Shown here piece after piece: positions 7,531-55,950 of a stretch of DNA of 64,000 nucleotides. The DNA comes from Hypericum androsaemum. Lineage: Eukaryota; Streptophyta; Magnoliopsida; Malpighiales; Hypericaceae. Each line of letters opens with the position of its first letter. Position 1 is the stretch's first letter. Both the position numbers and the translations under genes were made by a program. Under the pieces are notes generated by a model. It did no database searches and had not been told where the DNA came from. It saw only the letters and a list, made by a program, of their open reading frames with translations. The stretch lies in assembly GCA_963995505.1 (NCBI GenBank), contig OZ023196.1, positions 11,653,106 through 11,717,105 on the forward strand, written 5' to 3'.

Positions 7531-7644
7531 AATTGGCGGTGTCGACACGGAACTGAGATTTTAGGACATAAAATCAAAAGTAATTAGTTTTGTGTAGCAA
7601 CCTTGCTGATTTCGTGTGCTCTCTTTTTTAGGATTCTCTAGTGC

Positions 7645-9018: not shown

Positions 9019-9886
9019 CAACACCGAGTCGAACCCACGAGGACAGGTGATGGCCATCACATTGAGGAGTATGGACAAGGATGATGAACCATATATTCCT
9101 CCACCACCTTATGTCCCTCCACCTCCATTCCTGCAAAGACTCCGGAGAAAGCCACCACTTGAGAACAAATCATCTTCAAAAGAATGTGCCGAACCGATCA
9201 AGCCAGCCATAGAGGAGGAGGTAGTTACTGAAAAGAAGGAGCCACCAGTCTATATTAGTGAACAAGAGAATTCTTATGTTTCTCCACCATCACCTCAAAA
9301 AGTCAAGAAGGAAGCAGCGATCGATGTGAAGGCCCTTGAATTCATAGAGACGATGGAAGACATTCAAAGCCATATCTCTTTCTTGGAGATGTTAGATAAA
9401 AGGCCACAATATGTGGAGTTTCTGATGGAAATCATCGCAAGGAAGAAGAGGCGGAATGATGGCAAGACGACCCCTTTGGTAAAAAATTACAAACTGCCAG
9501 AACTAAAAGATCCAGTGAGTTTTACGATTCCTTGCACTATTGACGGTATTCAGTTTTCACATTGTTTATGTGATTTGGGTGCCAATATTAATCTTATGCC
9601 TTTGGCTACTTTCAAGAAACTCAAATTAGGGGGTATCAAACCTACACCTTTCAGGCTTCAACTGGCTAATCAAACTATGAAGAAACCCCATGGAATTATG
9701 GAGGATGTGATAATCAAAGTCGATAAGTCTTCCATACCTGTAGATTTTGTGGTGCTGGACTATGCTACCAATGACAGTTACCCACTGATTCTAGGATGTC
9801 CATTCCTCAACACTTGTCATGCAATGGTAGATGTTCACAATGGCAAGCTACTTCTTCGTATAGGCCCAGATGAAATAGAGTTCTAA
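8912..9886 (+). pseudogene. Retrotransposon linker and retropepsin-like aspartic protease
   Basis: This open frame continues gag (ALPSNTESNPRG, then AITLRS) into a Pro/Glu-rich linker and a retropepsin fold: FSHCLCDLGANINLMPL carries the active-site position in the DLGA form used by many plant gypsy elements, and YPLILGCPFLNTCHAMVDV is the second conserved segment. The frame ends at a stop at 9884-9886, just where reverse transcriptase would follow, and no RT motif is found in any frame after it. The protease itself has no internal stop. Confidence 0.85.
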
Positions 9887-13188: not shown

Positions 13189-14088
13189 CCCACAACCACC
13201 ACCACACCAACATGGACATCCCAATAAGACAAGGACTTAACCTTACTCAGTTGCAGGTTCTAGAGCGAAGCCACCACCTCGTGGAAGGACCCCGAACCGA
13301 GAACGCGGCTCATCACGAGGTACATTGGCGGAGAGTCAGTCGCAGGTGGGGTGGCAGGAGGGGAGGCCGGGCTGAGGCTATGGTTCGGGGAGTGGAGAGA
13401 GACGACAACAGATGGGAAAAGATACCGAGGTTGGATCAGTGGTGAGAGAAAATCATAAGAAATAGAAACACATTTTTGTTAGCCAAGGGTTTATGAGCAA
13501 GTACATGGATAATTTTGTCAGAGATGTACAACAACTTGTCGATTAGACTCGAACTCTCCTGATTCTTACTTTAACCCAACCTTCATGGGCATACGATCTT
13601 TTAATATATTTTAAGCATTTTCATGTTTACTAGGATTTTGGTTTTTGATTACTAGATTGGAAGGTTGAAGAAGATGCAATGAGTTGGGTTGCAGGTTTAA
13701 GGAGATGGGTTTGGTTGAATTATGGGTTGAAGGAGATGGGTTGAGTTAGATTGAGCTGGATTGGGTTGGGTTGGATTGTGTTAGGTTTGAGTCAAAGGAG
13801 GAGCTTTTGAAAAACTATAAAGAAATAAGTGATTGGAATAGATATTTTATTTCGTGCCAACTCAACATACCAACCAGGATAAATTTTTCGACGTGGTATG
13901 CCAACGGAGCCTAGAAACGACGCAGTTTCTAGGTTCGGATTGATTTTTGGCTCGGCACGTCCCGAGCCTCTTAGGCAAAAAAAAAGAGAAACCAGGTACC
14001 AAAAATAATCGTTTCTAGACCTCAGGATCATATCGTAAAATCTGTGAAACTACATGTACTAAAAATGAAATTTTCCCTATAAACTAAC

Positions 14089-22300: not shown

Positions 22301-22817
22301 GGATAAATGAATTTTCTACAGTTATTAACTTGCTCCTTCTCTTATCCTAAGAGATGCGAGATTCTCAACACCGATTCATCTTTTCTCCTAACTTTAATTT
22401 TGTCTGTTCGTATTATAAACAAGCTGGAGAATAAATTCTTCCCTAAAAAAAGCTGGAGAATAAATTTGGAATTTCGTTATCCCGCATGAGCGCTTGGTAA
22501 TGGAAAAGTTAAATAATTTAACCAATACAACGAACAGCTATTGGGAAAAAGGTCAAACACGTGTCGGCGAAGACTGTTTCCGTTAAGTGGGCGACGTCGG
22601 CGAGTTCGGTTGATTGAACCTCGTCGATAAAAGCTTTTTTCCGACCTGTCAGAAAGCCCAACCCCGTCGGTAAAAAGGTCATCAATTATGTTCAATTATT
22701 TCGGACCCATTCCTTACGGCGGCTGTGGGGAATTTTTTAAAAGGGGGTTTATTTTTCCGACAATTTTTTGAATGAGATTGTCAGGGGATGTATTTCTTGT
22801 CTGGGGTTGAGCCAGAA

Positions 22818-23095
22818 ATCGCTCCCGACGGAGCATTTTTTTATACCCAAAACTGCTCCCGCTGGAGCGTTATTTTTTATACCAAAAACCGCTCCGGCAG
22901 GAGCGTTTTGTTTTATACCAAAAACCGCTCCCGCGGGAGCATTTTTTTATATACCAAAATCGCTCCCCTCGGAGCGTTTTGTTTTATACCAAAAAACCGA
23001 TCCCGCCGGACCGTTATTTTTATACCAAAAACCCACGGAGCATTTTTTTAATACCACAAACCGGTCCTGTGGGAGCAATTTTTTTAAACCAAAAA
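22818..23095. repeat. Palindrome array 1, left end
   Basis: About seven units of 35-50 bases, each an imperfect palindrome of the type CGCTCCCGCGGGAGCG or CGCTCCGGCAGGAGCG, joined by TTTTTTATACCAAAAACC spacers. Each unit can fold into a GC-rich hairpin. Translations of this region give repeated peptides (FIPKTAPAGA) that are artefacts of the array. Confidence 0.9.
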
Positions 23096-23429
23096 TCCTA
23101 CCAATTTAATTCCAATTGTCCCATTTAAACCAGACCCATGTCTTAACCATTATACACGTAAGCTTGCAATAAATCTCTTAAATTTTTGTCGTAATAAATC
23201 TCAGATTTCATTTTTTTAACTTTTACCTGTATAATATATATGGTAGTATAAGTTATTGGGCAATTAACATCTGTAATAACGAGTCCACCTTGGCAAAACA
23301 TCCACAATATATGATAGAAATTTTTAATTTATTTTGTTAATTAACTGAAAACTAGAAAATTAAAATTGAAGTGAACTGATGGCTAAAAAAATAATAAAGC
23401 AACAAAACGAAAACTTATTAAAAAAATGC

Positions 23430-23790
23430 TACCGCGTTTTGTTTTTAACCAAAAATCGCTCCCGGGAGAGCGTTTTCTTTTTAATAAAAAACCTCTCCCG
23501 GGGGGAGCATTTTCTTTTTAATCAAAAACCGCTCCGGGGGGGGGGGGGGGGCGTTTTTTTTTTAACCAAAAACCGGTCCCCCGGTAGCATTTTATTTTTA
23601 ACCAAAAAACAATCCCGAGAGCATTTTTTTACCACAAATCGCTCCCCCGATAGCATTTTTTTTAACCAAAAACCGCTTGGGAGCATTTTTTTTCCACAAA
23701 CCGCTCCCCCGGGAGCGTTTTGTTTTTAACCAAAAAACTTTTATACCAAAAATTCTATCAAACCGGCCAAAAACCGGTCCAGAGCGTTTT
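23430..23790. repeat. Palindrome array 2, left end, with a 16-base G run
   Basis: Eight or nine units of about 40 bases of the type CGCTCCCGGGAGAGCG with TTTTTAACCAAAAA spacers. One unit has its loop expanded to 16 G (23536-23551). The array pairs with 37055-37420. Confidence 0.9.
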
Positions 23791-23885
23791 GAAGCCGGAA
23801 AAAGCCAGCCAAAAAATTAGCAAGGTAAGCTTACAATTTTACCCTCAAAATTATATTTTTACCAGGGTTATTTATGTAATTGAAA

Positions 23886-25025
23886 AAAAAATCAATTAAA
23901 ACCCTACCTCCTATCTCCTCCTTCCTCTATGTTTGCCTCTCCTCTCTGCCTCCTTCACTAAAAAGAATTTTCTCTCCTCTAATTTCCTCTCTTTTTTAAT
24001 TCCTACCAACACAGACCCAAAGTAGGCCGACCCGGACCAGCGGAGACCCAAGGAAGCCTGCCCCGACCACTGGAGTCTCAAGGAATTTCCTTAATTTTCT
24101 CTTTTTCGATATTGCATGTTTCCGATTTCACATCCCAGCTTTTTTTTTGAACATTAGAAACGCTCCACCTTGAGCATTTTTGGTTATATTTTTTTTGAAC
24201 ATTAGAAACGCTCCACCTTAAGCGTTTTTGGTTATTTTTTTTAACATTAGAACCGCTCCACCTTAAGCGTTTTCTATTTTTTTTATACTTTCTATTTTTT
24301 AGATTAGCTCCCAATTTGACGGGACATCCCCAATTTGCATGTTTCCTATTCATGGTTTTTTTTCCTTATACATTCTTTGGGTAAAACAAAAACGCCCCAG
24401 CTTTCGATTTCGATTTCAACCTGTTATTTTTTTTGGCTTCCATTGATTTGATATTTTTCAGCTTGTTATCTCGATTGCATGTCGATTGATTTTTTTGTAG
24501 CTTTTTTGTAGCTTCGTTATTATTGTTTTGTAGCTTTTTTTGTAACTTATTATCGTTTTATTGTTTATTATTTTTCAGCTTGTTATGAAGGAACATCGCA
24601 ATCTAGAGAATTGTTAACATTATCTAATGTTCATCGTGCAAGGGCCGTATGAACTAATGAGGTTCGTATAGTATAAAATTATTTGTAAAATAGTTCAAAA
24701 CTTTTTTTTTATTCGTGATATGACAGTTATTGTTAAAAACTTGTATTCAATTATATGAACTACCTCATCACTGTTTTTAGTTATTTTATCTATTTTGAAA
24801 TTTAGATGAAGCAACGTAAAAATTTTGTTAGAAAAAATTCTATGTTTTAAAAATCACCCAAATTTATATTAGTTAACCTAGTTAATACTCGGGATGAAAA
24901 ACAATTTGATAAAAAAATGAAGCAGAGCAAAACGTAACACCTCACCACCGTGTTTTGTTGTTAAAAACTTGTATTCAATTATATATTTTATTAATTTGTG
25001 AAACTTCGTGTAGGTTAAAAAATAA
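23886..25025. other. Region between left inverted end and PMD gene
   Basis: Contains three further hairpin units at 24140-24290 (GAAACGCTCCACCTTGAGC type, about 50-base period, separated by TTTTTGGTTATTTTTT), a CT-rich tract at 23905-23995 that could be a leader, and AT-rich DNA. No exon of the PMD gene could be placed here, although its missing first exon may lie here. Confidence 0.6.
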
Positions 25026-27377
25026 CGTGGAGAGGCGTTCAACAACAAAATTGACGAACCAATAAGAGTTCATCGTCGAGAATTCAAACAGAGGCCAGTT
25101 AAGAACGCGAGATTTGCACGTTATTTGGCTGAATCGGGTTTTGGGCATGTGTGGTGCATTGGATTTATAAAGCACATCGATTGGTTTTTGATAACTGCAT
25201 TGGCGGAGAGATGGTGTCCTGAGACGCACGCCTTCCATATGCCTGATGGTGAAATGAACATCACTCTTCAAGATGTGTCAGTTTTGCTAGGGCTGCCAGT
25301 TGATGGAAAACCGCTCACAGGACTGTAGACTCCGAATGATTGGGGAGCGTTGTGCTTTAATCTTTTTGGTAAAGATCCTTCTGAATATGCAAATGGTAGC
25401 AGAGGTAACACAATAAGTTTTAATTGGTTGCTATCTGAATTCAATCCATCTGATCTAAGTGAAGATGCCCCGGAAGAGATGGTTCGGCAGTATGTTAGAG
25501 CAAACATATATTTTTTGATGGGAGCCTTACTCTTTTCCGAGAAGAGTGATGGCTATGTTCACACTTGTTGGTTGCCATTTCTCGAAGATCTGGAATCTCT
25601 TGATACATATAGCTGGGGTAGCGCATGTTTGGCCCATTTGTACAACCAATTGTGTATTGCTACCAATCCAAAAAGCAACGAAATTGCTGGAGCCACTTAT
25701 TTGATTTCTATGTGGGCTTGGGAGCGGATTCGTCCTTGTCGTCCCGTTTTAAAAAAGGAGCGAATACCACAACCTGGAGAAGCTATAGGCATCAGGTTAG
25801 AATTTATAATTAGTTAAATGTAAATAGGTCTTTGTTATATTATCCATTTTTTCTTGACAATTGTTTTTCTAATGCAGGTGGAGTTCGGTCATTAACCAGA
25901 AGAGGTCTTTTAAGACAAATATGTCTGATATAAGACGAGTGCTTGAAGATCTTTCCCCCTCAGATGTATGTCATCTTACATTTTCTATTACATATCATCT
26001 TTAAAGAAAATGCATGCTCATAGTTTTTTGTATCAAATTCATTAAGTTTGCTTTTTTATTGTAGATTGTTTGGCAACCTTATCAATCACTAATAGACGAG
26101 GAACCTAGCTTTGATGAAGAAATTGTACAGTGCTGGAAAGCCCGAGTATCATTAATTAGTTTTCATGCTGTAGAGTGGCACTATCCAGATCGAGTATTGA
26201 GACAATTTGGGATAGCACAACCCATCCTACAGCATCCTGAGCCCGACGACGGTATTCATGCGGGAGAGCGCAGAGGTAGAACTGATATAGACTGGGAAGT
26301 CCAATATAAATGTCATGTGAAAGTGTGGATAAATCGCCATAGGCATGTGGTAAGAGGTCCTCCTGCAAATAATATGGATATTCATTTCCACAGTAAATAC
26401 TTGGATTGGTATAGGCAAATAACGGTACGCTTTATAACACCGTGTGGTGCCGTACAACCTATATTGGTAAGTAAATTTATTATTTAAATTAAAATTAAGA
26501 TGTCTTAAACACTACATCATATACTAATGATTCACAATTTTGTATAATAGGCTGATGCAATTGAACGGATGAGGCAGATGTCTCAAAATGATGAGCTCCG
26601 TCGTATGGCAGAATCAGCACTTGGTGTAGCTGAAGAGCAACGCCGCTATCTTGGTATGCCCATTTCTGAGGAATCCTATAGTGTCGAATTCAATGCGAAT
26701 TATGGAATTCGAGAAGAAGAGAAGGTAGAATGTGTTACAAAGTTGACTCAATTTTTAATATTAAATATATTAAGTTAACTTACCTAATTTTATCTTATTA
26801 GAAACCGTGGGGTAGACGTAAAAAAGCCCTTGCAAGTGGCAGGAGACTAGTTCCGAGTGTGCAACCGATACCTTGTAATCCTGTTATGCCGCCCCTCAAA
26901 TGGAATGATTACATGCCACCTCATGATCCTGGTGTTCCAGGGTCAAGTTCCCATCAATTGTATGGGCATTCAGAGATGGGAGGACAATCGTCACAGCAAA
27001 ATCTATATAGACCGCAGATGTTTGGGACACAAGCACTTTCAACCTTTCAAAATTTTGCTGGTACATCGTCATACACGCCTTTTTCCCATATCTCGGGGTC
27101 TTTTGCAGATGTTGGTGACTTGATGAACATAATAAGTCCAGGAGTACAACATGATATTGGTGGACCGAATGTTGCACACCTAACAACGGTTGTGAGTGAA
27201 CCGATAAATAACAATGAAGACATGCAGGTTGATGGTGAAAGTGACAATGAAGAGGAAAGAGAATGTGACAATCAACCTGTGGAACTACGCCGAGGCAGTA
27301 GAGACCATCACGCTCCAGAGCCGTACACGACTAGTAGAAAAAATATGTTTTGGAAACGTAGAGGCAAACACAGCTGA
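25026..27377 (+). pseudogene. Plant mobile domain (PMD) protein gene, one nonsense codon
   Basis: PMD proteins (MAIN/MAIL group) occur both as plant nuclear silencing factors and as transposon cargo. Five exons read in phase: 25026-25795, 25878-25965, 26065-26466, 26551-26724 and 26802-27377, all with GT-AG borders. The domain shows ITALAERWCPETHAFHMPDG, then EMNITLQDVSVLLGLPVDGK, YVRANIYFLMGALLFSEKS and YSWGSACLAHLYNQLC. Later come SMWAWERIRPCRP, PYQSLIDEEP and an acidic, Ser-rich C-terminal tail ending near RRGSRDHHAPEPYTTS. An in-frame TAG at 25326-25328 follows LPVDGKPLTGL. Apart from that the frame is open over about 670 codons. The start is not found: a stop lies just upstream of 25026 and there is no in-frame ATG before the domain. 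Confidence 0.85.
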
Positions 27378-27842
27378 ATGGTGGGACACTGTTTTGGAAA
27401 AACTGTTAGTGATATATGTTTAATTTTAGTTTGGTTGAAAACTCTATTTTTAATAAATATTCGAAACTCTCGCTTGGTTATGGTATTATTTACAATTTGA
27501 TTGTTCATATTCTTATGGCTGATTTTCGTGAATTTAGAATGCTCTTATTTTTTGGTAGATTGTACCTTGCGTTGAGTTATTTTGCCCCGAAGATATACAT
27601 GTTGGTTCAATTTGATCCGAAAGTTATTTTTCACGGAGCAGCATTTTTTTGCCATTGACATAAAAATAATTTTATTACAATATTTTAGTACGACTGCACA
27701 CTCACGTCACAACAGTTGAGATTTTGGACACATATAATAATAGGTGTACTATTTTTTTCATAACTACAAATTCACGGATTGAAAAAAGTCACACGAATTT
27801 AAGTCTATAAATAAGAAGATTACGATGTTGGTATTTGCATAG
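27378..27842. other. Spacer between PMD gene and small gene A
   Basis: AT-rich 3' flank. A frame at 27416-27658 has no domain. A 14-base A run lies at 27844-27857, just inside the next open frame. Confidence 0.5.
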
Positions 27843-28169
27843 CAAAAAAAAAAAAAACTGAATCACCGAAACCGCCAGAGGTGGATACTTCCTCAATTTA
27901 ATGATGATTATATGCAAGAACATCATACAGATAGAAGAGAGTATTTTGCTGGGCTAAAAAGAGAGTGGGTGTTTCGAGTAGCTGAGACTGAAACACTTGT
28001 TGCAGGTCTGCGAATATTGAATGTGCCTGTTTTGAAGAGGAGGTCACTGGACGTGGAAAAAAGTAAGATAGATTCATATGAATTAGCTCTGATCATGATC
28101 CGTCACGAGAATAATCGCATGATGCTGCGACGAAATCGATATCATATGCTTGATTTGGCAAGACAGTAA
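27843..28169 (+). CDS. Small gene A, unrecognised, related to A' on the other strand
   Basis: The frame is open from 27843 to the stop ending at 28169. The first ATG is at 27912 (85 residues), but similarity to A' begins upstream (NRQRWILPQFNDDY against a matching RWW segment), so the true start is unclear or lost. Conserved positions shared with A' are: EW-x-FR[IV], a basic segment with NV-x-V, then AL-x2-IR-x2-NN-x4-R-x-NRY. I do not recognise the family. The protein is basic and predicted helical in its second half. It follows the PMD gene on the same strand and faces A' tail to tail with 24 bases between the stops. Confidence 0.6.
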   Translation, partial: QKKKKLNHRNRQRWILPQFNDDYMQEHHTDRREYFAGLKREWVFRVAETETLVAGLRILNVPVLKRRSLDVEKSKIDSYELALIMIRHENNRMMLRRNRYHMLDLARQ

Positions 28170-28193
28170 GTATCAACATTAGGTAAAGACTTA

Positions 28194-28769
28194 TCAGATA
28201 TGCATCGTGATAGTATTTTTAATAATGCAAAATATATGTCTAATGAGTACATGTCCGATGAGGACTAAATTATCAATATCCTTGCTATCTTCATCTGACA
28301 TTTCAATATCTGATGCAAATTCGTTGACTTCACTAGTAACGCACTCGCCATCTTCATCGCCCACTACTGGATTTGTGCCATTTTGTAGCATAAATATATA
28401 TTCTCGTGCTCTCTGAATATCACCATGTTCAATAAACTCTTTGATGCTCTGTTTCAACTCATATCGGTTCAGACGAATCTTAATACAATTATTTTTTTCC
28501 CTTATTCGAAAAAGAGCTCTCTGCATAAATTCGGCATTTAAGCGTGGCATGTTGATAGCTATAGGTCGAGGAACCTTAACATTTACTCTCCGTGCATCTG
28601 AACGTAGACAATGTGATTGGTTAATACGAAAAGACCATTCACTCACCATTGTGCGGGCTACAGCAGGTGAATTGATCAGCAACGGGTCGAATGGGTAATA
28701 AAATTCATCTTATAGGGCCCACCATCGACCCATATTGAAGAAAATATCGGCTGGAGTATAATGCGTCAT
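28194..28769 (-). pseudogene. Small gene A', unrecognised, paralogue of gene A with an acidic tail
   Basis: From ATG at 28769 the minus strand reads MTHYTPADIFFNMGRWWAL, then a TAA at 28710-28712, then DEFYYPFDPLLINSPAVARTM and EWSFRINQ. A core follows (RRVNVKVPRPIAI, FMQRALFRIREKNNCIKIRL, NRYELKQSIKEF) and an acidic C-terminal stretch (VGDEDGECVTSEVNEFASDI). The core matches gene A on the opposite strand. A' is longer by about 75 residues at the C-terminus. With the stop read through it would encode about 190 residues. No known domain is recognised. It stands between gene A and the transposase gene and shares the transposase's strand. Confidence 0.6.
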
Positions 28770-29050
28770 TGAGCCTGCTGAACAATATGAAATAATTATG
28801 TATCAAACACAACCTCCACACTTCCAAATTAAACACTAGATTTAACATTATATTACAAGCAAATATAACTGTCGATAAACAAGGTACAACAACAGAGAAA
28901 GTGACAAACAATGCTAGAAACTACGAAGAAATAAAATGAGCAACAACTCTGATAGCATGGGTCTGGGATTCGTTCAAACCACGTTGTTGCAAAACTCAGT
29001 AGGAGAAACCAACAGCAAGGAAAGAGTACCCCCAAAACAATTTGGTGAAT

Positions 29051-31687
29051 TCAACGCCCACGACGTGTTCTTCCACTCGTACTGGCAAGACTCTCAACAT
29101 TAGTACAATGTGCGACAGAATGGCCCTCATTCTTACACAATGAACACACAACTTGTCGAGGTGTCTGGTCCATCTCATTCTGTATTCTTTTCATTGGATG
29201 ACCTATTTGGCTCAATAATGTGTCATCTGGAAGAAGTATCACATCAGGAGAGTCAACCGGTGGCCAATAAGATTCATTTCCAAGTGGATGGAATAATTGC
29301 TCATAGCAATCTCTTATGTTTGCCATTTTGTAGCACTTATCAATGAAAAACCTGTGGTCGAGATTTAGCGCCACGCAACAAGTTATTGCATGTGAGCAAG
29401 GATAATGCAGTGCCTGAAATTTTCCACATTGGCACTTCCTGGCATTCAAGTTGACTTCGAAATCGTGTCCACCTTTGTCGAAGTGTGCATTTCTTCCTGT
29501 AGTAACTTGACATATGCCTTGCTGACGGTCAAATAATCTCATAGTATGACCCCGAGCCTTAGCCTTCCACCTTTCCAAACTTGTATTCACCTTTTCGGAA
29601 TACCTCACACCGGAGGCAACTTCTTGTGAGCATGCTATTCTTCTTTGTTGAAAATAGTCACGTAACTTTTCAAATATTCCAGTAACCAAAGCTGCGACCG
29701 GCAAATGATGGACTTTCTTAAACACATTGTTAACACACTCGACAATATTTGTTGTCATATGGCCGTACCTAGCATGAATGAAAGAACACATTCATAAATA
29801 ATTAACTACTAAATAACTGCGATATATGTTGTCATGTAGCCGTACCTATATCTGTGATCACATGCTAAACTCCACTTTTTCTTTCCCAACTTTTCAATCC
29901 ATTGGTATGACTCAAGATGGGCTTCCCTAATCCGATTCAAATCATTGTCCAACTTTTTCTTCTACGCTTTTGATCCTGTGAAAAAATTATAATCATCATT
30001 ACCGTATAAATGTGAACTGACTAATAGTCTGCGTACAATACTAGATTCAAAATGAGTTACCTGTCACCTTCATTAAATTTTTTATTCTCTCGCGCTTGAA
30101 GTGTTGGTTGTAGTTTCTCACAACATGGCGAAGACAATATCTATGGACTGCTCCTGATGACTCATCCCAGCTACAAACATCAGTAGTCATCGCCTTTTTA
30201 GTGCCAGGGTGACGATCCAAAATAATACATATTCTAGAAGGATATTCAACAAGTGCAAATGCTATCGGAATGATAGCATTGTTTCCATCTACTGCAGTTG
30301 CAATTAACAGAGTTTGCTTATATTTTCCGTATAGGAACGTCCCGTCAATTAGCAAAACAGGAATGCATTTCTTGAAGGCATCGATGCATGGCTTGACAGC
30401 CCAGAACACTCGCTTGAATATTCTAGTTCTTGGTGGCACAAGAATATCGGTACCAGTGTAGCAATACTGATATTCCCACTCCACTATTGTTCCTGGATTT
30501 GCCGCTTGACATGCAGCAAACCATTTAGGCAACATGTTGTATGATTCTTTCCAACCCCCCCCCCCCCCCCCCCCCCATATCATGGCAATTGCCTTCTGCT
30601 TCCCAGCCCATGCTTTTTTATAAGAGGGTTTAAACTTCAGATGGTCTTGAATCTCAGTAATAATAGAAATAATTGGAATAGTTGGTTGATGTTCTATCTG
30701 ACGTCGTATGCACCGAGCAATAAATTTGGAGTCTAGTTGTATATGATCTTCAGACGCCCTTTCCCCAGCACAAGTGTGAGGATATCGGTATTTGGAAACC
30801 CCCCAAAAACCCTTTTTAATTGATGCCCAAAAATACCAATTACAACCTCCTTCCGTATGAAGACACCTAACGACCCAACAATGCTTTTTTGACTCTTCGA
30901 CAAAATAGTCATAGCTAACTTTCATGGAGTATCTCTTCACTGTCCGTATCACATCTTTCTTATTTGCCCAAATCATATCCTCATTCAAATCAACATCTCT
31001 TTCTACTGATTGGTTGTTGACGACCCAACCTTCATCATAAGCGACCAATGCCTCACATACGTCATCCGCATCACCATCTAAATTTGGCTCATCTTCGTCA
31101 TCAGTTGAATCAAAATTTGGATACAGTGTTTCCACAGCATTTTCATTACGTTGTACTGGAATTTCTAATTCTGGGTCATGTACAACATTATAATGACGCT
31201 GAGGCTCATCCGCAGGAAAATAATTTATATCCAAATCATTCACTCTTGAAGTTCCAGGTCTAGTCAAATTATATTGCATAGTACTCGTGAACTCAAAAGC
31301 AAGAGTACTATTTACATTCAATTGACCATCCACAAAATGAATATTTTGTGGTATAGCAATTGCTCCTTTCTAAACATAAAGTTGTAGATATTTTAAACCA
31401 GGAAAATCATTCATACAATTAACCATGGTGTCCACATCAGCATCATCACAAACATCTATACAAGTAAACTAAATAGGTGGTCCTAATAATATCGGCAATC
31501 TAAACATAAGCCTACTTATATATTCATTTTTACCAAATCCAATCTTGCTTCTAATAGCTCCACAAAGACTGTTATATTTAACTGAATGTTCAAATCTGAT
31601 CACTTTGTTCCGTCCCCCGATATAATCCAGACCTTCGGGACCGTTATAGTAATTACCATCATATCTCAACAAGAATTCTGCTACCAT
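29051..31687 (-). pseudogene. Mutator-like (MULE) transposase, damaged
   Basis: MULE transposases cut and join the element ends in the nucleus. The N-terminal PB1-like part (31687 onward, LLRYDGNYYNGPEGLDYIGG) is followed by two stops (near 31467 and 31372). The main frame 31333-30047 contains the MuDR DNA-binding region, a catalytic core with PVLLIDGTFLYGKYK and IILDRHPGTKKAM, and HRYCLRHVV. A middle exon (about 29848-29981) has an in-frame TAG. The last exon (29791-29051) gives GHMTTNIVECVNNVF, the SWIM finger CQCGKFQALHYPCSH and a terminal knuckle CSLCKNEGHSVAHC. Between FALVEYPS and RICIILDRH about 20-25 residues usual for the family (the W-x-WFL segment) are missing. A 22-base C run (30555-30576) is read in frame as poly-Gly. 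Confidence 0.88.
30555..30576. repeat. 22-base C run inside the transposase gene
   Basis: Uninterrupted C on the plus strand. On the coding strand it gives WGGGGGGGW between AIAMIW and KESYNMLPKW, where the family normally has only about three residues. Confidence 0.95.
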
Positions 31688-31916
31688 ATTATGCTTCCAC
31701 TACAAAAAAAAAATCTTACATCAGTCTAATATAACCTATAGAAGTTATAACAAATTTAGTAACTTTTTACGAAATGTTAAAATTACCTGGTTCTCTCGTT
31801 GAAATTAGGAAATGTCCTCTTCTTTTTTTTGGTAGAAGAAAACTCGGTAAGTACTAATGAAATCGTAACTCAAAATTTATAACAATTAAACATGCAAGAA
31901 AATGCTGCGAACATGG

Positions 31917-32275
31917 CATTTTCAAGAAAATGCCATGGCCGGAGTAGTTTTAACACAATAAAAATTTAAGAGATTTATTGGAATTAAATAGAATATTGTG
32001 GGGGTTTTATAAATTAAACCGGCCAAAAACCGAACCAAAAACTGCTCCGGTTGTAGCATTTTTTTTAATACCAGAAATCGCTCTGGCTGGAGCAATTTTG
32101 GTATTAAAAAAAATGCTCCAGACGGAGCAGTTTTTGGTTTTTTATGCAATTTTTTGGTAGGCCAAAAATTGCTATGGCTGTAGCGGTTCCAACACAATAA
32201 AAATTTAAGAGGTTTGTTGTCCGGTTTGGAATTAAACCAGCCACAAACCGCTCCAGTGGGAGTGGCTTTTTTTCG
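31917..32275. repeat. Internal palindrome array of the giant MULE
   Basis: Hairpin units such as CGCTCTGGCTGGAGC and TGCTCCAGACGGAGCAG with TTTTTTAATACCA spacers lie here. The segment ACACAATAAAAATTTAAGAG occurs twice (31950 and 32190) and resembles the unique part of the inverted ends. This looks like a displaced or ancestral end lying in the middle of the element, just upstream of the transposase gene. Confidence 0.75.
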
Positions 32276-32293
32276 TAGGCCGACCCCCACCCT

Positions 32294-33537
32294 CATTGCA
32301 CTACACTTGTCGCAAGCTAAGATGGCCTACGTAGAACGAGTGATACAAATCAATACAGCTCATGCTATATAATATAGGTTTCAGTTGGCAGAATGACGAA
32401 CATCAATGTGCCTAGGGCACACTATTACTAAAATATGACAAAACTAGCCCTAAAGGCTGCCTGTGAGACCTAACAGGCCTGTGAATTGAATTGAAGTATA
32501 CTTTTTGTAAAGTAAAATTTTAGTTTTTGGAAACGAATCAATATGCTATATAATAGACGTTTCAGTTCACAGAATGACGAGACACATCAATGTGCTTAGG
32601 ACACACTATTACTAAAAAAAGACAAACCTAGCCCTAATGTGCCTCTGAATGGCCCTCGTATTTTTTGTAGAGTAGAATATTAGTTTTTGAATACGAATCA
32701 ATATAGCTGATGCTATTACTCTTTGGACAATAGGTGCAATATACTTTTTGGAAAGTGAAAGCTAAGACAACAATATTTTTTGTCGAATATTATTACATTT
32801 TTATTAAGATACCTCGTTCTCTTGTTAAAATTAAAAAATATCCTCTGAAATAGTTATATTTTTCTTTTTGGTAGAAAAACTTAGTAAATCAGTATGAAGT
32901 CGTAACTTGTTACTTATAAGAATAATGGAACATGAAGATATGGGTGTTTTTAGTACATTAAAATGTCACTTTCAGAGTATTTTTTGTTATTCACTGTAAT
33001 AGGTGTAGTATACTTTTTCGAAAGTGAAAGAAATTTTTTTTGGAAACAAATCAAAACAGCTCCTGTAGTAGTTTTTGGTCAGGTCAAAGTTTCAAGCCTG
33101 AATCGGCGACCGACCGACCTGATTGCACTACACTTTTGGCAAGCTAAAATGGCCTACGTAGAACGAGTGATACAAATCAATACAGCTCATGCTATATAAT
33201 AGAGGTTTCAGTTAGCATAATGACGAACATCAATGTGCCTAGGGCACACTATTACTAAAATATGACAAAACTAGCCCTAAAGGCTGCCTGTGAGACCTAA
33301 CAGGCCTGTGAATTGAAGTATACTTTTTGTAAAGTGAAATATTAGTTTTTGGAAACGAATCAATATGCTATATAATAGACGTTTCAGTTCACAGAATGAC
33401 AAGACACATCAATGTGCTTAGGCCACACTATTACTAAAAATGACAAACCTAGCCCTGGCCCTCATACTTTTTGTAGAGTGAATTATTAGTTTTTGGATAC
33501 GAATCAATATAGCTGATCCTATTACTCTTTGGATGTT
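32294..33537. repeat. Two direct copies of a 0.4-kb block, 828-bp period
   Basis: ATTGCACTACACTT followed by GGCCTACGTAGAACGAGTG, TGCCTAGGGCACACTATTAC and CTAACAGGCCTGTGAATTGA occurs at 32294-32735 and again at 33122-33537. Inside each copy a shorter sub-repeat (TATAATAGACGTTTCAGTTC) is itself a diverged duplicate. No coding frame is supported. Confidence 0.8.
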
Positions 33538-34006
33538 ATTAGTCACGACTGTACTATTCGGACAAGACTACTCTTGTCTAGTGATTTAAAGGTTGTTAAT
33601 AAAATGCTCTATTTTTCACATTTTTGGTTATTTAGCATATGGACTAATGCGTCTAATGTTACTCTAAATATAGGTATATTTTTAAACGAATAAAGATGCC
33701 TTCCTACGACAGATTTGAAGTCCTTAAAAAAAATCGATTAAGTCATCAGAAAATCATCTATTTATAGTATTATTTTGAGACTATTGTTTGGTTTTAGAGA
33801 TTGTTGTTATGTATTCTGTTGTGTTATTTGAGATGGATGCTAGTGTTTTTTATTTCAGGTTATATGGTTGTTACTTTCTTAAAGACAGCGTATAAAATTT
33901 CATAAAAATATATTTTAATAACAACACATTATTTCTATTACATAGTCAGGGAAACACAACATCGCAAAATGTAGACAAAAGTACATAAAATCACACTCTC
34001 ATATGG

Positions 34007-34971
34007 TTACATGGTTGAACCAGGTGCAAACACTGCCACCACATTATTGATGGTTATGTTACCGCAGAACACATTCCGCTGCAATAGAGCCCAAACGACA
34101 AACTGTTAAAAAATACAGCAATAAATATTTGTTACATAAATGCACTGATAATAATAATGTCATGTAATATTTCATCGCTAAATGGATATACTCACATTTG
34201 ATAATATTATTGCACATCCAGCACCAATCACAAAATTTCTCTCAGTGAAGACACGGTGATGTATGCTAGCAGGCAGAGTACCAGTTGGGTCCTTAAAAAA
34301 TTAAATTAATTAAAGTAGTCAAAAATATAGTAATTATGAGGATATTTAAAATTATTATCATTATACCTTCAAAACTACCATGGCATCACCTAAACCATTA
34401 GGAGTGAAAGTTTCGACCATCGCAACCATCTACAAAAATTATAAAATATGCATGTTATAAAATGTTACATATGAAAAATAATCGAATATATTAATATATA
34501 ACAATTTTGTTGTACCTGCATAATTTTATGCACATCTCTGGTGTGTTTAGCCTCATCAATAGTGGTCATAAAAATATCTCTATCTACCAAACCTATTAAA
34601 ATAACATAATATTTTTAATATCACATACAGACAGATAAAAAGAAATTATAGAAGATGTTGTGCATCATACCTTGAGCCATTATATAGGAAATTGCCGTTG
34701 TCCATGGATCTTTTTCAAAAATATCGTCAGAGATTGGGTTGGTAAATTCTCTATAAATGGCATGCTGAGTTGTCAGTTCAGGATGGGAGCTAATGCCATC
34801 ACGACGATTAGCTAACGCCCTTCGTGTAGCATTTTGGTAGTGGCCAGCAGGACCAGCGATCCTACTAGTTCGAGGTTGAGGAGGAAGAGATTGTGTTAGG
34901 GACAAAGAATAATACGATTCATCATCGCTATCCAATTGTAAATAATCTTCCCAATTGTTTAATGGATCCAT
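34007..34971 (-). CDS. Gene B: transposon-borne OB-fold protein resembling plant HROB
   Basis: HROB is an OB-fold recombination factor that loads the MCM8-MCM9 helicase. Gene B reads as five in-phase exons: 34671-34971, 34516-34592, 34367-34429, 34196-34291 and 34007-34102, giving 210 residues with no stop. The start ATG (MDPLNNWEDYLQLDSDDES) begins an acidic N-terminus. Then come DDIFEKDPWTTAISYIMAQG (the W-x-x-A segment placed before the OB fold in plant HROB) and an OB-like domain: MVETFTPNGLGDAMVVLKDP, TGTLPASIHHRVF, IGAGCAIIL, NITINNVVAVF. Plant HROB proteins are longer, so this is the C-terminal module with a short head. The family assignment is from memory of conserved spacing and needs a profile search. 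All five exons being intact suggests selection or recent origin. Confidence 0.75.
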
Positions 34972-35426
34972 TTTTTGGAGTAACAATTTTTTATAAAAGA
35001 TGAGTTGATTTGGAAAAGCTGCAAAAGGTGTGAAAGAAAATTGTTGTATACATGCATATATATAGAGTTGTTAGATTATTTAGATTTATCATAAAGATAT
35101 CCATATTTCCAGATTTTGGATAAGAACCCCAATTTTTGTAGGGTAAGACATGACATAGCAGAAATTAGACAAACAAATTGGTTACAGTAGAGAAGGCTTG
35201 AAAATGCTAAAATTTTAGCAGTTTTGGTACCACGCTCTAATAACAGCGTTTTATGTTAACACGCCGACTATATGACATTTTAAATAAATTTGCTTAGAAT
35301 TTTACATCTTTATAAGAAGCACTAAGTAGATTTGGATTTTACATACTAGGGATAAGGGCAATCCGATCTATATACGTGTGAACATCATCATTCTTTTGCA
35401 CCTTCAAAATCTCAAAACTTTAGAAA
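34972..35426. promoter_or_regulatory. Shared divergent promoter region of genes B and B'
   Basis: Only 455 bases separate the start codons of the two related genes, which point away from each other. TATA-like stretches lie near both ends: TATATATAGAG at 35059-35069 (towards B on the minus strand it reads CTCTATATATA) and GATCTATATACG near 35368 towards B'. This is inferred from layout only. Confidence 0.45.
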
Positions 35427-35775
35427 ATGAATCCATCACAAAATTGGGAAGAATATATAGACATAGAGAGCGAAGAAGAATCTTACTGTCCATTGTCACT
35501 ATCCCAGCTTTCTCCTCAATGTCAGGGTATAGATTATAAAAAACTTTATGGCTCACATTTTGATATGAAATAATGTATTAAAGATCGACGGCTAGAGCTT
35601 CAAGGCAAACCGAAGGACTACAAAAAAAAATCTCCCTAAACGTTGTCTACCTCTTGTCCCGAAGCGTAGCGACGAAATTTTCAAAAGAGATCCATGGACA
35701 TCAGCGGTTCACTTTGTTAAGGCTCAAGGTATCACATGTTATTAGCTAAATTGTCTTATTACATTTTTATTGTGG

Positions 35776-35826
<51 letters not shown>

Positions 35827-36305
35827 AGGTATGCTAATTGGAAATACCTTTATTGGGATACCTATTGAGGAGTTCAATAAGAAGCCCGGTGGTAGTATAA
35901 TTTCACAGGTAATATTTTACAGAAATTCAATTTGTCTATGAAATCTCAGAAAAAATAACCACATAAAGTATTATTCGTGTTTGTATTGTAGATGGTTTTG
36001 TATGTGAAAACATTCGTTCCTAAGGGCATTTTGATTTTAGTGGACCCTACCGGTAGTCTTTTTGGTATCATACGTGACTCCACAGGTAGTGTTGCTGCTG
36101 GATGTGTGTTGGTTCTAAAAAATGTAAGATATTTTATCACTGTCATATGATACCATAAAATGGTTTGAAAAAATATTGACTTACTAATGTGTTATTTTAT
36201 TAGGTCAAAGTGGATGATACTGGGGATGGCCAAAAATTACTTAAGGGTACTAATGACAACGTCATCAAAGTGTTCAAGAAACATGGCAAAACTTCATCAA
36301 CTTGA
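35427..36305 (+). CDS. Gene B': second OB-fold (HROB-like) gene, 5' part uncertain
   Basis: Starts MNPSQNWEEYIDIESEEES, matching the head of gene B (NWE-x-Y, acidic, ESY...LSL-x-Q). After an unclear stretch (about 35525-35640, where a 9-base A run may hide a frame change) it reads RSDEIFKRDPWTSAVHFVKA. Further exons are 35829-35908, 35992-36123 (YVKTFVPKGILILVDPTGS, then AAGCVLVLKN) and 36204-36305 (ending NDNVIKVFKKHGKTSST). Three intron positions match gene B exactly. The intron before DPTG is absent here and the domain is a few residues shorter. B' is therefore an old paralogue, not a retrocopy. From 35640 onward the frame is open. Whether the 5' exon joins cleanly is unresolved, so it may be a pseudogene. 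Confidence 0.6.
35779..35822. repeat. (TA)22 microsatellite in an intron of gene B'
   Basis: Forty-four bases of perfect TA repeat, ending six bases before the splice acceptor of the third visible exon. Confidence 0.95.
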
Positions 36306-36405
36306 GAATATAATCTCTATATGTATTGCTTTATTGTTCCTTGAATTCGGTAAAAATGTACTCATCTTAGAGATTGTTGTAATATATTGTGTTGCTTTAT
36401 TATTT

Positions 36406-36904
36406 TTTTAGCCATTGAGGCGGTTCACTTTAATTTAAATTTTCTAATTTTTAGATAATTAACAAAATAAATTTAAAGTTTCAAATGTATGTTGTCAATG
36501 TTTTGCCCAATAACATATAATACCATATATACTATAGATGTAAAAGTTAGAAAATTAATGAAATCTGAGATTTGTGACGACAAAAATTTAAGAGATTTTT
36601 TGCAAGCTTACATGTATAATGGTTAAGACCGTTTAAATGGAACAATTGGAATTGAGTTGTGGGGTAAAAAAATGCTCCGTGGGTTTTTGGTATAAAAATA
36701 ACGGTCCGGTGGGAGCGGTTTTTGGTTAAAAACAAAACTCCCCCGGTGAAGCGGTTTTTGGTTAAAAACAAAACGCTCCCGGGGGAGCGGTTTGTGGTAA
36801 AAAAAAAATACTCCCGGGGTTGTTTTTTGGTTAAAAAGAAAACGCTCCCCCGAGAGCGGTTTTTGGTTAAAAACAAAACGCTCCCGGGGGAGCAATTTTT
36901 GGGA
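36406..36904. repeat. Extra partial copy of the right inverted end
   Basis: TTTTTTTAGCCATTGAGGCGG, then TAATTAACAAAATAAATT, TTTTGCCCAATAAC, CAAAAATTTAAGAGATTT and a block of hairpin units (36668-36904) repeat, in direct orientation, the order found at 37445-38000. The right end of the element thus carries about 0.5 kb of duplicated end sequence that the left end lacks. Confidence 0.8.
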
Positions 36905-38112
36905 GCGATTACGTAAATAACTCTGGTAAAAATATAATTTTGAGGGTAAAATTGTAAGCTTACCTTGCTAATTTTTTGGCCGGCTTTTTCCGGCTTCAAA
37001 ATGCTCTGGACCGGTTTTTGGCCGGTTTGATGGAATTTTTGGTATAAAAGTTTTTTGGTTAAAAACAAAATGCTCCCGGGGGAGCAGTTTGTGGAAAAAA
37101 AAATGCTCTCGAGCAGTTTTTGGTTTAAAAAAATGCTCCCCCGGGAGCGGTTTTTGGTTTAAAAAAAATGCTCCCGGGGGAGCAGTTTTTGGTTTAAAAA
37201 AAATACTCCCCCGGGAGCAGTTTTTGGTTTAAAAAAAATGCTCCCGGGGGAGCGGTTTGTGGTAAAAAAATGCTCCTTTTGGTTAAAAAGAAAATGCCCC
37301 CTAGTGAGCGGTTTTTGATTAAAAAGAAAATGCTCCCCCGGGAGCGGTTTTTGATTAAAAAGAAAATGCTCTCCCGGGAGCAGTTTTTGGTTAAAAACAA
37401 AAAGCGGTAGCATTTTTTTAATAAGTTTTCGTTTTGTTGCTTTATTATTTTTTTAGCCATCGGTTCACTTCAATTTTAATTTTCTAGTTTTCTGATAATT
37501 AACAAAATAAATTAAAAGTTTCTATCGTACATTGTGGATGTTTTGCCAAGGTGGACTCGTTATGACAGATGTTAATTGCCCAATAACTTATACTACCATA
37601 TATATTATACATGTAAAAGTTAAAAAAATGGAATATGAGATTTATTACGACAAAAATTTAAGAGATTTATTGCAAGCTTACGTGTATAATGGTTAAGACA
37701 GAGGTCTGGTTTAAATGGGACAATTGGAACTAAATTGGTGGGATTTTTGGTATAAAAAAATTACTCCCGGAGGACCGGTTTGTGGTATTAAAAAATGTTC
37801 CGTGGGTTTTTGGTATAAAAATAACGGTCCGGCGGGATCGGTTTTTTGGTATAAAAGAAAACGCTCCCACGGGGGCGGTTTTGGTATAAAAAGAAAATGC
37901 TCCCACGGGAGCAGTTTTTGGTATAAAAAAACCACTCCCGCGGGAGCGATTTGTGGTATAAAATAAAATGCTCCAGGGGGAGTGGTTTTGGGTATAAAAA
38001 AAATGCTCCGGCTGGAGCGTTTTCCGGCTCAACCCCAGACAAGGAATACATCCCCTGACAACCCCATTCAGAGAATTGTCGGGGAAATAAACCCCCTTTT
38101 GGAAAATTTTCC
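36905..38112 (-). repeat. Right inverted end of the giant MULE
   Basis: Reverse complement of 22727-23885 in order: AAGCTTACCTTGC (36956), palindrome array 2' (37055-37420, about ten units of 39 bases, GCTCCCGGGGGAGC type), unique AT-rich segment (37420-37740), palindrome array 1' (37745-38030) and terminal DNA to 38112. The right array 2' is slightly longer than its left partner. Confidence 0.88.
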
Positions 38113-38121
38113 GGCGGCTGT

Positions 38122-51590: not shown

Positions 51591-54170
51591 TGGTAATTAA
51601 TCTCTCGTTGATTTCCCGCTTCCCCGCCCTCCCGCTCCCTCCCCCCATCCCTCCCCCAACTCATGTGGCTGCCAGAGGGGTTGGTCTCTACGACCACCCC
51701 TCCGGTTTTGCTATGTCTTAATTAATGCTTCCCTCGGCTAGGGTTTCGAGTTCCACCACCGTCGCTGCTGTTCCGATGTCTCCAACGGCCTCGTTGAGAC
51801 CCTCAGATGGAGGTTTTCAGCCGCCGTCGCTTAATCCCTGCCCTTCGCTAGGGATGGATCCGAAAGTTCTCATGGCGCTTCAATCCAGCATCCTTCCTCT
51901 CCTTCACCAGTTCTACACCTCTCTTGCCCCATTAGTCGGTAACCCTTCACAGGCGCTGGCTCATGGGTTGACAGAGGGTGTGGGGCAGGCTGTGGAGGGT
52001 GTGAGGCCCACACCTTCAGGAGATATACAAGCGAGCAAAGATGGGGTTGCAGAGACTACTGTGACACCGACTCCTATGGCTCCAGCAGAGAACGCCATGA
52101 AGAAGATATCCTACGCGGCCGCGCTCCACCCGCGATCTGACCGGGTCCAAGAAGGTACGTATATTAAGCCAGTCTTCGATGGCGAGCATATGGTCGTTGA
52201 ATTGGATGCAGATAGATCATCAGTTTGTGCAAACTTTGGGAAGCGCGCTTTGATTGGAAGGTTAGTGATGCCGAGAGGCGCCAAACCTTGCTCGACATTT
52301 GACTTGAAAGCTGCTATCTCCAAAGTTTGGTCTGTGCAATCGTGGAAGTTGCTTCCTCTTGGCCTGGGGTACTTTGGTTTTCAGTTTGAGAATGAGCACG
52401 ATAAGGACATAGTTTGGAGCTCTTCAGAATGGAGACTTCCTCAGGGATGTCTCTACTTGTAGCTATGGGTACCCTATTTTAAGCCCACAAAGGTTTCCTC
52501 TTCTTTTACGAAGGTATGGATTATATTAGGGGGGTTGAGCATGGAGCATGTCGCTAATGATATCATACTTGGACTAGCTGCGGCCATCGGTAACCCCATT
52601 CGATCAGACTTGACTACATTAAATAGGTTTAATGGTACTTTGGTACGGGGTTTGGTGGAACTAGACATGTCCAAGCCTCGTCGGAAAGAAATTGTATTGA
52701 AGCTTGAGGAGGGCACGGTCTTAGTTGATGTGGTGTACGAGAATTTGCCTCTTTTCTGCGAGCATTGCAAAATCATTGGTCATGATTTAGACTCTTGCCG
52801 AAAACTGCACCCACGGGTTGAAGCTGAAATCAATAGACATGAAATTGCTAAGGAAAAGCAGGCGATGGAGGATCAGGGTCCCAAGAGGTCCGTGGGGAAG
52901 CAGGTGTGGCAACAAAAGAATGAGTGCTCCCCTAGTTCACCAACCAGCATTGAAGTTGAGGAGTGCTTATCTCTTGCCCTTATTACTGTATTGGAAAACT
53001 TTGTGCAACAGGTAGTACGCGAAGAGGAGGATCAAGAGGATGGTGATTCGGTGGTACTTCATGTCCCTGATGCGAGGGAAGAGGGTGAAATTCTACCTGG
53101 TGATAAATGTTCTTCATTAAGTACAGGTCAAATTATGGTTTCGAATGATTTGGTCCAGTTGATGGTGCTTGATGAAGTTCCTAAGCAGTCTCCAATGCCA
53201 AGTACAAATAACATAGAGGGGGATTGTGGTGTAATGATTGAGAAGGTTTCACCCTCCCAAGATACATGTCAGGTATTTTCAGGCCCGATTATAATAGAGC
53301 CGTTGACGCCAGCTTCACATGTGACTGACTCATCGGGTTCTAAGCCTAGGTCAGCATCGGGCAAGAAAAAGGGACACAAGAATGGCCCTTCCTCGGCTGA
53401 GTTATTGGCATCACTCTCTCCTAAGGATTTGGCAATGGCTGAGGCTAGGAGGGCATTACCTACTCGCTCATTCAGTTCAAAGGGCTCCAAGCATAAGGGT
53501 TTGGAGCCGGGTTTCCTTGGCAAGGGAACCCCAATAATACAGGGACCGTCCCCATCTATTTTGGGCAGCGCCTCTGCTTTACCTACTATAGATCCCATGC
53601 CTATCCCAGGTCAAGAGGGCAATGGGGTTGTTATTTTTTCTAACAACGATGATCTTTCAGACTCGTTGAAGTTCATGGGTTCGATTACGAAGAAGATGAA
53701 GAACAATTGGGCAGACGAGGCGGATTCACAGATGGACCTGGAGGACTCCCATCTACCACCTGTTAAGAACACTCGCTTTCAAGCGAGGAAGAAGACTGGG
53801 ACTACCTATGCCAGTAAGGATCTACGTTGGCTGGAGTATGAGGTGGACTTTTGATGCGCCGCGGCTGATTTATCATCCTGGACTACCCGTGTTGTGGGTA
53901 CCCCTACACATCTTCCTCCAACTTGTCCCCGCGGGCTAGGAAGAGGAACGCGAAGAAATAGAAGAAATGATCGCTTTAGATCATTGGTTCCTTCATCGGC
54001 CTCGCTATCCCTCAAGTTAGTAGGGTCGAGTTCTTCTTTATGGCGATAGGCTTGCTGTTTTGCGGTTTCCTATTCGGCCTGTGTGTTTGGCTTCTCTTCT
54101 GTTTCCTTTTCCCCTTCTTGTAACTTTTTCGTTTCTTTGAGTAATAAAGTTTCTTTTTGCCAAAAAAAAA
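51591..54170 (+). mobile_element. ORF1-only LINE insertion with intact target duplication
   Basis: GCACAAAAAGTATG occurs at 51577-51590 and again at 54171-54184. The DNA between ends in a poly(A) tail (54162-54170) preceded by AATAAA (54143). This is the signature of target-primed LINE insertion. The 2.58-kb body holds a 5' leader, ORF1 and a short 3' region. Endonuclease and reverse transcriptase (ORF2) are absent although both ends are present, so it is an internally shortened or inherently non-autonomous LINE. Confidence 0.85.
51725..53854 (+). pseudogene. LINE ORF1-like protein, DUF4283 and CCHC knuckle, one stop
   Basis: The DUF4283-type domain reads KPVFDGEHMVVELD, GRLVMPRGAKPCSTFDL, then VWSVQSWKLLPLGLGYFGFQ and CLYL. 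A TAG at 52460-52462 interrupts the family's LRLWVP-like segment, which continues in the same frame as WVPYFKP. ILGGLSMEHVANDIILGLAA and a knuckle CEHCKIIGHDLDSC follow. The rest, to 53854, is a long acidic and Ser-rich tail with Lys-rich patches, open over 430 codons. With the one stop read through, the whole ORF is about 709 residues. Such proteins bind RNA in plant LINEs. The openness after the stop suggests a recent insertion. Confidence 0.85.
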
Positions 54171-54184
54171 GCACAAAAAGTATG

Positions 54185-55950
54185 AATATTTTGATCTTTC
54201 CAACCAACCAGGGAGAGAATTGCCCGTCTTAGTCAAATCAAGCCACTAATGACAGTATATTGCTTAGAAAACATATCAAGCAAATTAACCAACGACGAAA
54301 AATAAATAACACTACCAAAAGTAAATTCTCAATCCTAAAAGCGAATGTCCTAAAAAAAACCTAAAAGAGAATGCAAAATGGTTGCGTTTCTTCTACTGCC
54401 TCCTTCCATTAGTACATCATTTCATTAGGGATATTGAGTAAAACCGCACAGGGAATCAACCTCTCACCACTGGATCAAAATTGATGATGATTCTAGACGA
54501 AATCGTACTATGACAATCGGCAGAGTGTACCGAAATAACGGAATCAACTCGATATGATACTGTCCTAAAATTTTTGCCAAAATTTTTTTGGATCACCTAT
54601 AAATAAATTCAACACACTTATAATTAATAATGCAGTAATCTCATTGGATTTTATCGTGGCGAAAGTTTACTAACGATGTGATGTAAACAATATTATAAAT
54701 AAAATTCACTTGTGGTAATCTGGATTTCCACTAATTTTTTTGTCTATTGTACAATTTACTCTGCATTGTCTATTATTCGCCTAATATTTTGATTACCTAC
54801 TTTTTTTTTTGTTATCAATTATGCTATCAATCATTATTTTAGGTTACCAAGTAAGCATTTTTGTGTCTACGTTATCTAATATCTATATATATATATATAT
54901 ATGGTATGCAATTATCTACCACTACAATATTTAAACTAAAAGAGATACATTTTTTCTCAAACAACAAAATTGAGTTCCTGTAATACTATGTTTGGACAAA
55001 GAAATACGGAGTAAAGTCTAATTTCATATGATAAAGTCAGGTAGAGCAAATTAAGATACAATAGATAGAATTTACTATAACATATTTGGATAAGTAAAGG
55101 TTATTCCATGCTGTTTGATATATATTTTTCGTCATAAGGATAATTGACTGCAATCTTACGATGTTTTAACACTAGGTTATTCTATTTTCTTCCAATTTCA
55201 GTTGGAATTAAAAAACCTTTTCTTTATATTTTTTGAAGGTTCTAATTACTCAATATGAGTCTCTATTATTACTTTATTAAAACTCTTTACTCTCTGAATG
55301 TTATCTGTATATATCACAATAAATTACTCTCTTGATTATCCTACACAAACATGTTTAACCTCTAATATCTAAACTGGTTAAAGTTTACATACTATCTATT
55401 ACTCCTACGCTTCAACACACTACTACTTAATGACAGATATTTTACGTGACATTACATTCGCTAACCTCAGTTATTTGAGCTACTCGTATGTAATGTCACA
55501 TCATTATTTTCATCTGCGTTTCACACATCAATAGTTTTATTTGTGACATATCAATACCATGGATTCTTATATGGACACCATTGAATTTGAATGATATCGA
55601 TTTTGTCCCATTTTAATTACTGAATTGGCAAGTCACTCAGATACAAGTAGTAATATTACATGACACGCTTATAAAATTAATCACATAATATGAACCACGA
55701 AGATTAGAAAGGTCACTTAAATCCCCACAATAGTAAAATGACTCTCCGGTGTGTTTCTCTGAGTTGGCGGGAAGGAGAGGAGTGGGACCAAAAAGCAATC
55801 AAAATCCCCTCTCTCACAAGTCTCTTTCTCTCATAAATCCTCCCACGCCGGACCACCCACTCTCCAACCTCCACTCGCCCCCTCCATCCTCCATTTCTAT
55901 CTCGAAAACTTGAACTCGATGCTCTAAACTCACAAAAAACACACACAACA
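54185..55950. other. Upstream region of the ZAR1-like gene
   Basis: AT-rich DNA with a TA microsatellite near 54885-54902 and no gene. The CT-rich DNA at 55830-55920 is probably the 5' leader. ACAACAATGACC is a good plant start context at 55951. Confidence 0.55.

Follow-up and report, generated by a model that had tools for sequence, protein, structure and literature searches.

Results

A Mutator-like element with a divergent gene pair

The window analysed here, a stretch of 64,000 nucleotides, contains a Mutator-like element (MULE) of ~15.4 kb (window 22727-38111), which bears a MURA-type transposase, a plant-mobile-domain (PMD) gene and, in the interval from the transposase to the right end, a pair of HROB-like genes that we refer to as B' and B (Table 1). 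The left and right ends of the element are 86.6% alike when aligned over ~1.2 kb, and these inverted ends, together with an exact 10-bp duplication (within the 9-11 bp norm, its border being uncertain by 1-2 nt), identify the element as Mutator-like. Within both ends (22797-23760 and 36679-38036), units of ~35-36 nt from the repeat families D1 and D2 share a near-palindromic GCTCCCGGGGGAGC-like core. The transposase matched the MULE transposase domain (PF10551, 38.0 bits vs a cut-off of 27.6) and the SWIM finger (PF04434, 25.0 bits vs 19.6), while the PMD gene matched PF10536 with an E-value of 3.2e-48 when its one stop was read through, and 6.5e-17 for the next exon. The PMD gene lies antisense to the transposase, an arrangement that most of the MUDR clade shares according to PMC6446971, and this part of the element is thus ordinary.

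In addition, the element contains a second pair of related frames in convergent orientation (27843-28169 on the plus strand and 28194-28709 on the minus strand), with 31% identity over 62 residues (E 4e-8) and no Pfam family above cut-off in either frame, which raises the possibility of a second duplicated pair of genes besides B' and B in this element. To its left, further inverted repeats at 5241-14079 (arms 5353-5483/13818-13948 and others, 84-87% alike) perhaps represent a second large element, and to its right three plus-strand frames were observed, with DUF4283 (52463-53854), with leucine-rich repeats and a partial kinase (55837-57483) and with a kinase domain (61976-62638).

Table 1. 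Features of the Mutator-like element and of the B'/B pair (positions in the window)
Feature	Position	Strand	Basis
Target-site duplication, left copy CGGCGGCTGT (10 bp)	22717..22726	.	Exact repeat, scan around both ends
Left inverted end, near-palindromic units of ~35-36 nt	22727..23880	+	Repeat families D1, D2
PMD gene, one stop at ~25327 in window copy	25026..27377	+	PF10536
MURA-like transposase, exon frames 30047-31369 and 29051-29791	29051..31369	-	PF10551, PF04434
B' exon 5 (OB fold ends)	34007..34078	-	Splice model
B' exon 4 (DPTG)	34196..34291	-	GT-AG
B' exon 3 (OB fold begins)	34367..34429	-	GT-AG
B' exon 2	34516..34592	-	GT-AG
B' exon 1 (NWEDY head, GPAG, DPWTTA)	34671..34971	-	Splice model
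Intergenic region upstream of both B' and B	34972..35426	.	TATA boxes at ~35057-35064 (B') and ~35369-35374 (B)
B exon 1	35427..35728	+	Splice model; TAA 35571-35573 and frameshift in A-run 35622-35630 in window copy
B exon 2	35829..35908	+	Splice model
B exon 3 (VDPTG; equals B' exons 3+4)	35992..36123	+	Splice model
B exon 4	36204..36305	+	Splice model
Right inverted end	36908..38111	-	Alignment to left end, repeat families
Target-site duplication, right copy (10 bp, exact)	38112..38121	.	Same scan of both ends

Structure of B' and B

The two genes are divergent (head to head) and stand 455 bp apart. B' (34971-34007, minus strand) is intact in the window, with five exons, GT-AG introns and a product of 202 aa; an alternative acceptor at 34103 would lengthen its last exon, which is open in that form as well. 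B (35427-36305, plus strand) has a similar head, DPWT-x-A segment and DPTG core. An earlier note, made from the letters alone, had placed the pair inside a transposon and had described a common head, a DPWT-x-A segment, three common intron positions and an OB-like core with DPTG. The inverted ends, the exact 10-bp repeat and the transposase domain bear out the first of these statements, and the motifs and splice sites were all recovered at 34007-36305: NWE-x-Y (NWEDY in B', NWEEY in B), DPWT-x-A (DPWTTA, DPWTSA), the DPTG OB core, and introns at AQ|G (phase 1), Q|M (phase 0) and N| (phase 0). Comparison of the B' and B profiles gave a probability of 99.2.

The note had also read B as open over five exons, which holds for the minus-strand gene B' and fails for the plus-strand gene, whose window copy contains a stop and a frameshift and which probably has four exons. 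Enumeration of splice pairs for a five-exon B gave no convincing open join in the window copy. The 57-nt 'first intron' that such a model needs can be read through in frame in 16 of the 25 aligned copies (the window and 24 of the 38 other loci described below), and neither B' nor the host HROB gene has an intron at this position in its first exon; for these reasons B is most likely a gene of four exons and 204 codons, as judged from the aligned sequences. The same 57-nt stretch keeps its length in 23/25 copies, starts with GT in 24/25 and ends with AG in 25/25, so optional splicing is conceivable and may occur. The window copy of B is broken under either gene model, its frameshift persisting even with the 57 nt spliced out.

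Relationship to HROB and origin of the pair

B' matched the Pfam family of HROB (C17orf53, MCM8IP; PF15072) with an E-value of 3.2e-17 and 62.7 bits (cut-off 30.8), over residues 123-198, and the family assignment of the earlier note is thereby supported for B'. For B the outcome varies between copies: those of the window type score 26.3-27.0 bits, under the cut-off, and copy L023 scores 35.0, over it. Among Pfam profiles neither protein matched any domain other than HROB, and a search of solved structures returned no HROB among its matches. The protein search with B' found one relative, P0001 (42% identity over 67% of the query), which looks plant-like and has little bearing on how widespread such proteins are; the search with B found none. 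At the profile level, P0001 was matched with a probability of 99.4 by B' and 96.0 by B, and hhalign placed B with the host HROB at a probability of 97.8. B lacks GPAG before its PW motif, having GKPKDY in its place, and shows VDD where HROB has VF, from which we suggest that B may not bind as HROB does.

The source assembly used for genome-wide searches comprises 385 Mb in 29 contigs, with the gene content of a plant. Its host HROB locus (L043, contig 15), the best match of the P0001 search in this genome, scores 96.5 bits against PF15072 and possesses a C-terminal tail. B' aligns to it with 41% identity over 224 columns (E 2e-41); the alignment begins at the WE head, includes GPAG and PW-x-x-A and extends to where the OB fold ends, which means that the head motif noticed earlier is the HROB N-terminus. 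The first exons of L043 measure 346/83/63/102/66 nt (intron phases 1,0,0,0) and those of B' 301/77/63/96/72 nt, with boundaries and phases equal to the first four introns of L043; B keeps introns 1, 2 and 4. Since the intron positions and phases of L043 are kept in B', the captured copy derives from the gene, without its tail, and not from a retro-copy, and this agreement in head, OB fold and four introns upholds the proposal that the transposon captured a recombination-factor module of its host. Indeed, B' resembles HROB in its WE/acidic head, GPAG, PW-x-x-A and DPTG OB fold; unlike L043, B' and B are multicopy within a transposon and lack the tail (B' stops after the OB fold, where L043 and P0001 run on), and B is also devoid of GPAG and of intron 3. 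Chance similarity of the pair to HROB is ruled out by the profile scores, the comparison with the host gene and the shifted-frame controls given below. The opposite direction, in which the host HROB would derive from the transposon, is unlikely because a tail is present in the host gene, and this gene is more similar to P0001 (61%) than to B' (47%).

Copies of the pair in the genome

At least 142 matches to the pair were found in the genome and merged by eye into ~39 loci, a lower bound as only the best candidates were scored. Of the 25 copies, five preserve both the reading frame and the splice sites of B' (the variable acceptor of its last exon being left aside) and four those of B; two copies (L010 and L023) have both genes intact and fall in different subgroups. 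The head-to-head order is kept in copies down to 68-78% identity, and TATATA precedes B' in 21/21 copies and B in 20/21. Of 20 copies extracted as ten-kilobase stretches, 17 show the right terminus beyond the 3' end of B. In the 12 sequences with transposase, MURA divergence correlated with that of B' (r 0.876) and of B (r 0.897; permutation p 0.0001). In three short elements (L014, L015 and L023), which span 5.2-6.1 kb and possess both termini, the pair is kept and most or all of the transposase is absent. Because all copies were found via the pair, these counts describe pair-bearing copies and are no measure of how often the pair is retained relative to the other element genes. No clear target duplication was found for L014 and L023; L015 has the 9-bp word GGCGAGGAC at both ends (read from the printed flanks), a weak case of duplication because the word recurs further upstream.

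Selection on the copies

Selection was estimated with a codon model having separate omega values for internal and terminal branches, written for this analysis (F3x4, topology from FastTree), in which stops and frameshifted codons were masked, a step that removes nonsense changes. Internal and terminal omega were 0.244 and 1.12 for B' (21 sequences; 2dL 30.9 vs internal = 1), 0.418 and 1.05 for B (21 sequences; 2dL 14.4), and 0.498 and 0.84 for MURA (2dL 16.1; 12 sequences, that is, the 12 copies with a match minus L021, which had short coverage, plus the window). With all 25 copies on a joint tree, the values were 0.253 and 0.89 for B' (2dL 34.5) and 0.451 and 0.86 for B (2dL 13.0). These runs of B used a five-piece model without the 57 nt, and their addition in a four-exon run gave 0.417 and 0.82 (2dL 16.1). 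Shifted-frame controls on the same exons yielded internal omega of 3.16, 3.24, 1.44 and 1.06, so that internal values of 0.24-0.45 in the true frames stand against 1.06-3.24 in the shifted ones, which is not the neutrality expected of Pack-MULE cargo.

A single omega for all branches was 0.770 for B' (2dL vs 1 = 4.5) and 0.820 for B (2dL 2.9), barely or not separable from 1. The earlier note had held that a dN/dS near 1 would speak against its proposal, and the all-branch average comes close to this value (0.71-0.82 across runs of both genes); the objection loses its force once internal branches are separated. Exon indels were multiples of three in 15 of 22 events for B', a count that includes two missing ends and several proline-codon gains that may be shared by descent, and in 2 of 16 for B, mostly single bases. 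The resulting picture is that of a pair constrained while the element moves and free once it is inserted, more strongly for B' than for B. Because internal omega is low and divergence tracks that of the transposase, we consider the captured and duplicated HROB module as a maintained part of the element: with high confidence, the pair has travelled and diverged with it as accessory genes under purifying selection.

Discussion

Gene capture by MULEs is well known. Our data show that a MULE ancestor captured a host HROB gene, introns included and C-terminal tail left out, and that the captured gene was duplicated inside the element into a divergent pair, in which B' has stayed HROB-like all the way from its head to its OB fold, B being the faster-changing paralogue. 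As the most likely role, we propose that the encoded proteins would act within the HROB-MCM8-MCM9 pathway of the host and promote the homologous filling of the gap that excision leaves at the donor site, and a cut-and-paste element would in this way gain copies; B may act as a partner or regulator of B'. Alternatively, the pair may help repair synthesis through the near-palindromic ends of the element. The earlier note had suggested that the module could serve copying of the element, repair after excision or stability of the palindromic ends. Taken as a whole, from capture and duplication to a selected pair with a gap-repair role via MCM8-MCM9, this explanation is put forward tentatively, as a reading that falls somewhat short of probable. 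The more specific view that the transposon's HROB-type activators draw MCM8-MCM9 to excision gaps, where repair would copy the element back and make transposition replicative, and that the near-palindromic ends would require such help in being copied, seems to us rather doubtful.

As regards the molecular side, the OB fold of human HROB contacts MCM9 and the segment before it contacts MCM8 (PMC11055865), and HROB drives unwinding by MCM8-MCM9 (PMC11055865, PMC7290032). Both contact regions are retained by B' in our alignment. From its position, GPAG is presumably the MCM8-binding motif, and the phenylalanine of VF presumably corresponds to human F553. On the side of the transposon, PMC10288884 traces MuDR deletions to interrupted gap repair and relates the proposal that homology-dependent repair makes cut-and-paste transposition replicative, a steered choice of break repair being the proposed source of copy-number gain, for which it calls the evidence far from conclusive. 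By bringing along an MCM8-MCM9 activator, an element could have a larger fraction of its donor sites repaired by homology.

The pair may instead be another kind of accessory factor without any link to MCM8-MCM9, acting in anti-silencing (VANC-like) or as an insertion aid (MURB-like), with the OB fold serving as a module for nucleic-acid or protein binding. Such factors have published precedents, namely VANC, a MULE accessory gene of VANDAL elements with sequence-directed anti-silencing (PMC5735166, PMC13317346), and MURB, which is required for new insertions (PMC9168764). Repeat arrays occur in the ends of the window element, as they do in VANC targets, and B has departed from HROB features. 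However, VANC domains as described there are different (DUF1985, DUF287), whereas B' and B match HROB alone, and B' retains the regions by which HROB meets its known partners, so that we regard this reading, OB-fold module included, as unlikely, although it is the most serious alternative.

A different possibility is that the pair, and B above all, acts as a competitor to the detriment of MCM8-MCM9 or the host HROB; this might, for instance, alter how excision sites are repaired or prevent the copies from recombining with one another. An OB-like core without GPAG and the VF phenylalanine, as aligned in B, is what a competitor might look like, and the host's C-terminal tail is missing from both proteins; yet B' retains those regions and is the more constrained of the two, which makes interference improbable. 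As for passive transduplication, in which functionless pieces would have been captured in the manner of Pack-MULEs, it agrees with captured fragments being mostly non-functional (PMC13317346), with most copies being broken and with an all-branch omega near 1, but internal omega well below 1 in true and not in shifted frames, the kept TATA boxes and the origin of the two doubly intact copies from different subgroups make it the least probable reading, and a very improbable one.

Returning to captured HROB genes working for the element, several known systems offer comparison. MULE-captured PMD genes (PMC5418596, PMC6446971) are likewise host-type genes beside MURA, one of them being present in the window element, and are tied to silencing, unlike HROB, which is tied to recombination. 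Kaonashi/KIU elements (Ulp1) and VANC-bearing VANDAL elements (PMC13317346, PMC5735166) also possess conserved cargo thought to serve the element, and differ by their domains (Ulp1; DUF1985, DUF287), by another role and by having no long inverted ends. MURB of maize MuDR (PMC9168764) is similarly a second MULE gene, needed for insertions, and is likened here by role, no relation being claimed. In the literature searched, from which subscription journals are mostly absent, no paper on HROB in a transposon was found, and the accessible parts of PMC11675949, PMC7290032 and PMC11377751 do not mention it. Within these sources, captured genes selected for the benefit of the element are few, and the published ones act on silencing or are uncharacterised. 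Our observations suggest that a transposon uses part of the host DNA-repair machinery for itself. A recombination factor kept as a divergent pair in copies down to 68% identity raises the question of whether DNA transposons steer break-repair choice, and the copies amount to a naturally occurring collection of HROB variants with which the activation of MCM8-MCM9 can be dissected.

HROB-like sequences were also observed outside the loci of the pair. Indeed, PF15072 had at least 44 matches in the genome (150 of 298 candidates scored), of which by position 22 fall in pair loci, one is the host gene and 21 lie elsewhere, seven of the latter (L035-L041) having been inspected. Four of them (L035, L036, L039 and L040) carry B'-like and B-like pieces in convergent order, unlike the head-to-head pair of the window, over ~1.5-1.7 kb between inverted repeats of 104-223 nt that are 86-94% alike; given this arrangement, HROB-like cargo does not seem to be confined to the element family of the window. 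Two more distant HROB-like copies were noted in addition: L041, with a head like SWDDIF, OB exons and no inverted repeat, and L038, with a weak inverted repeat.
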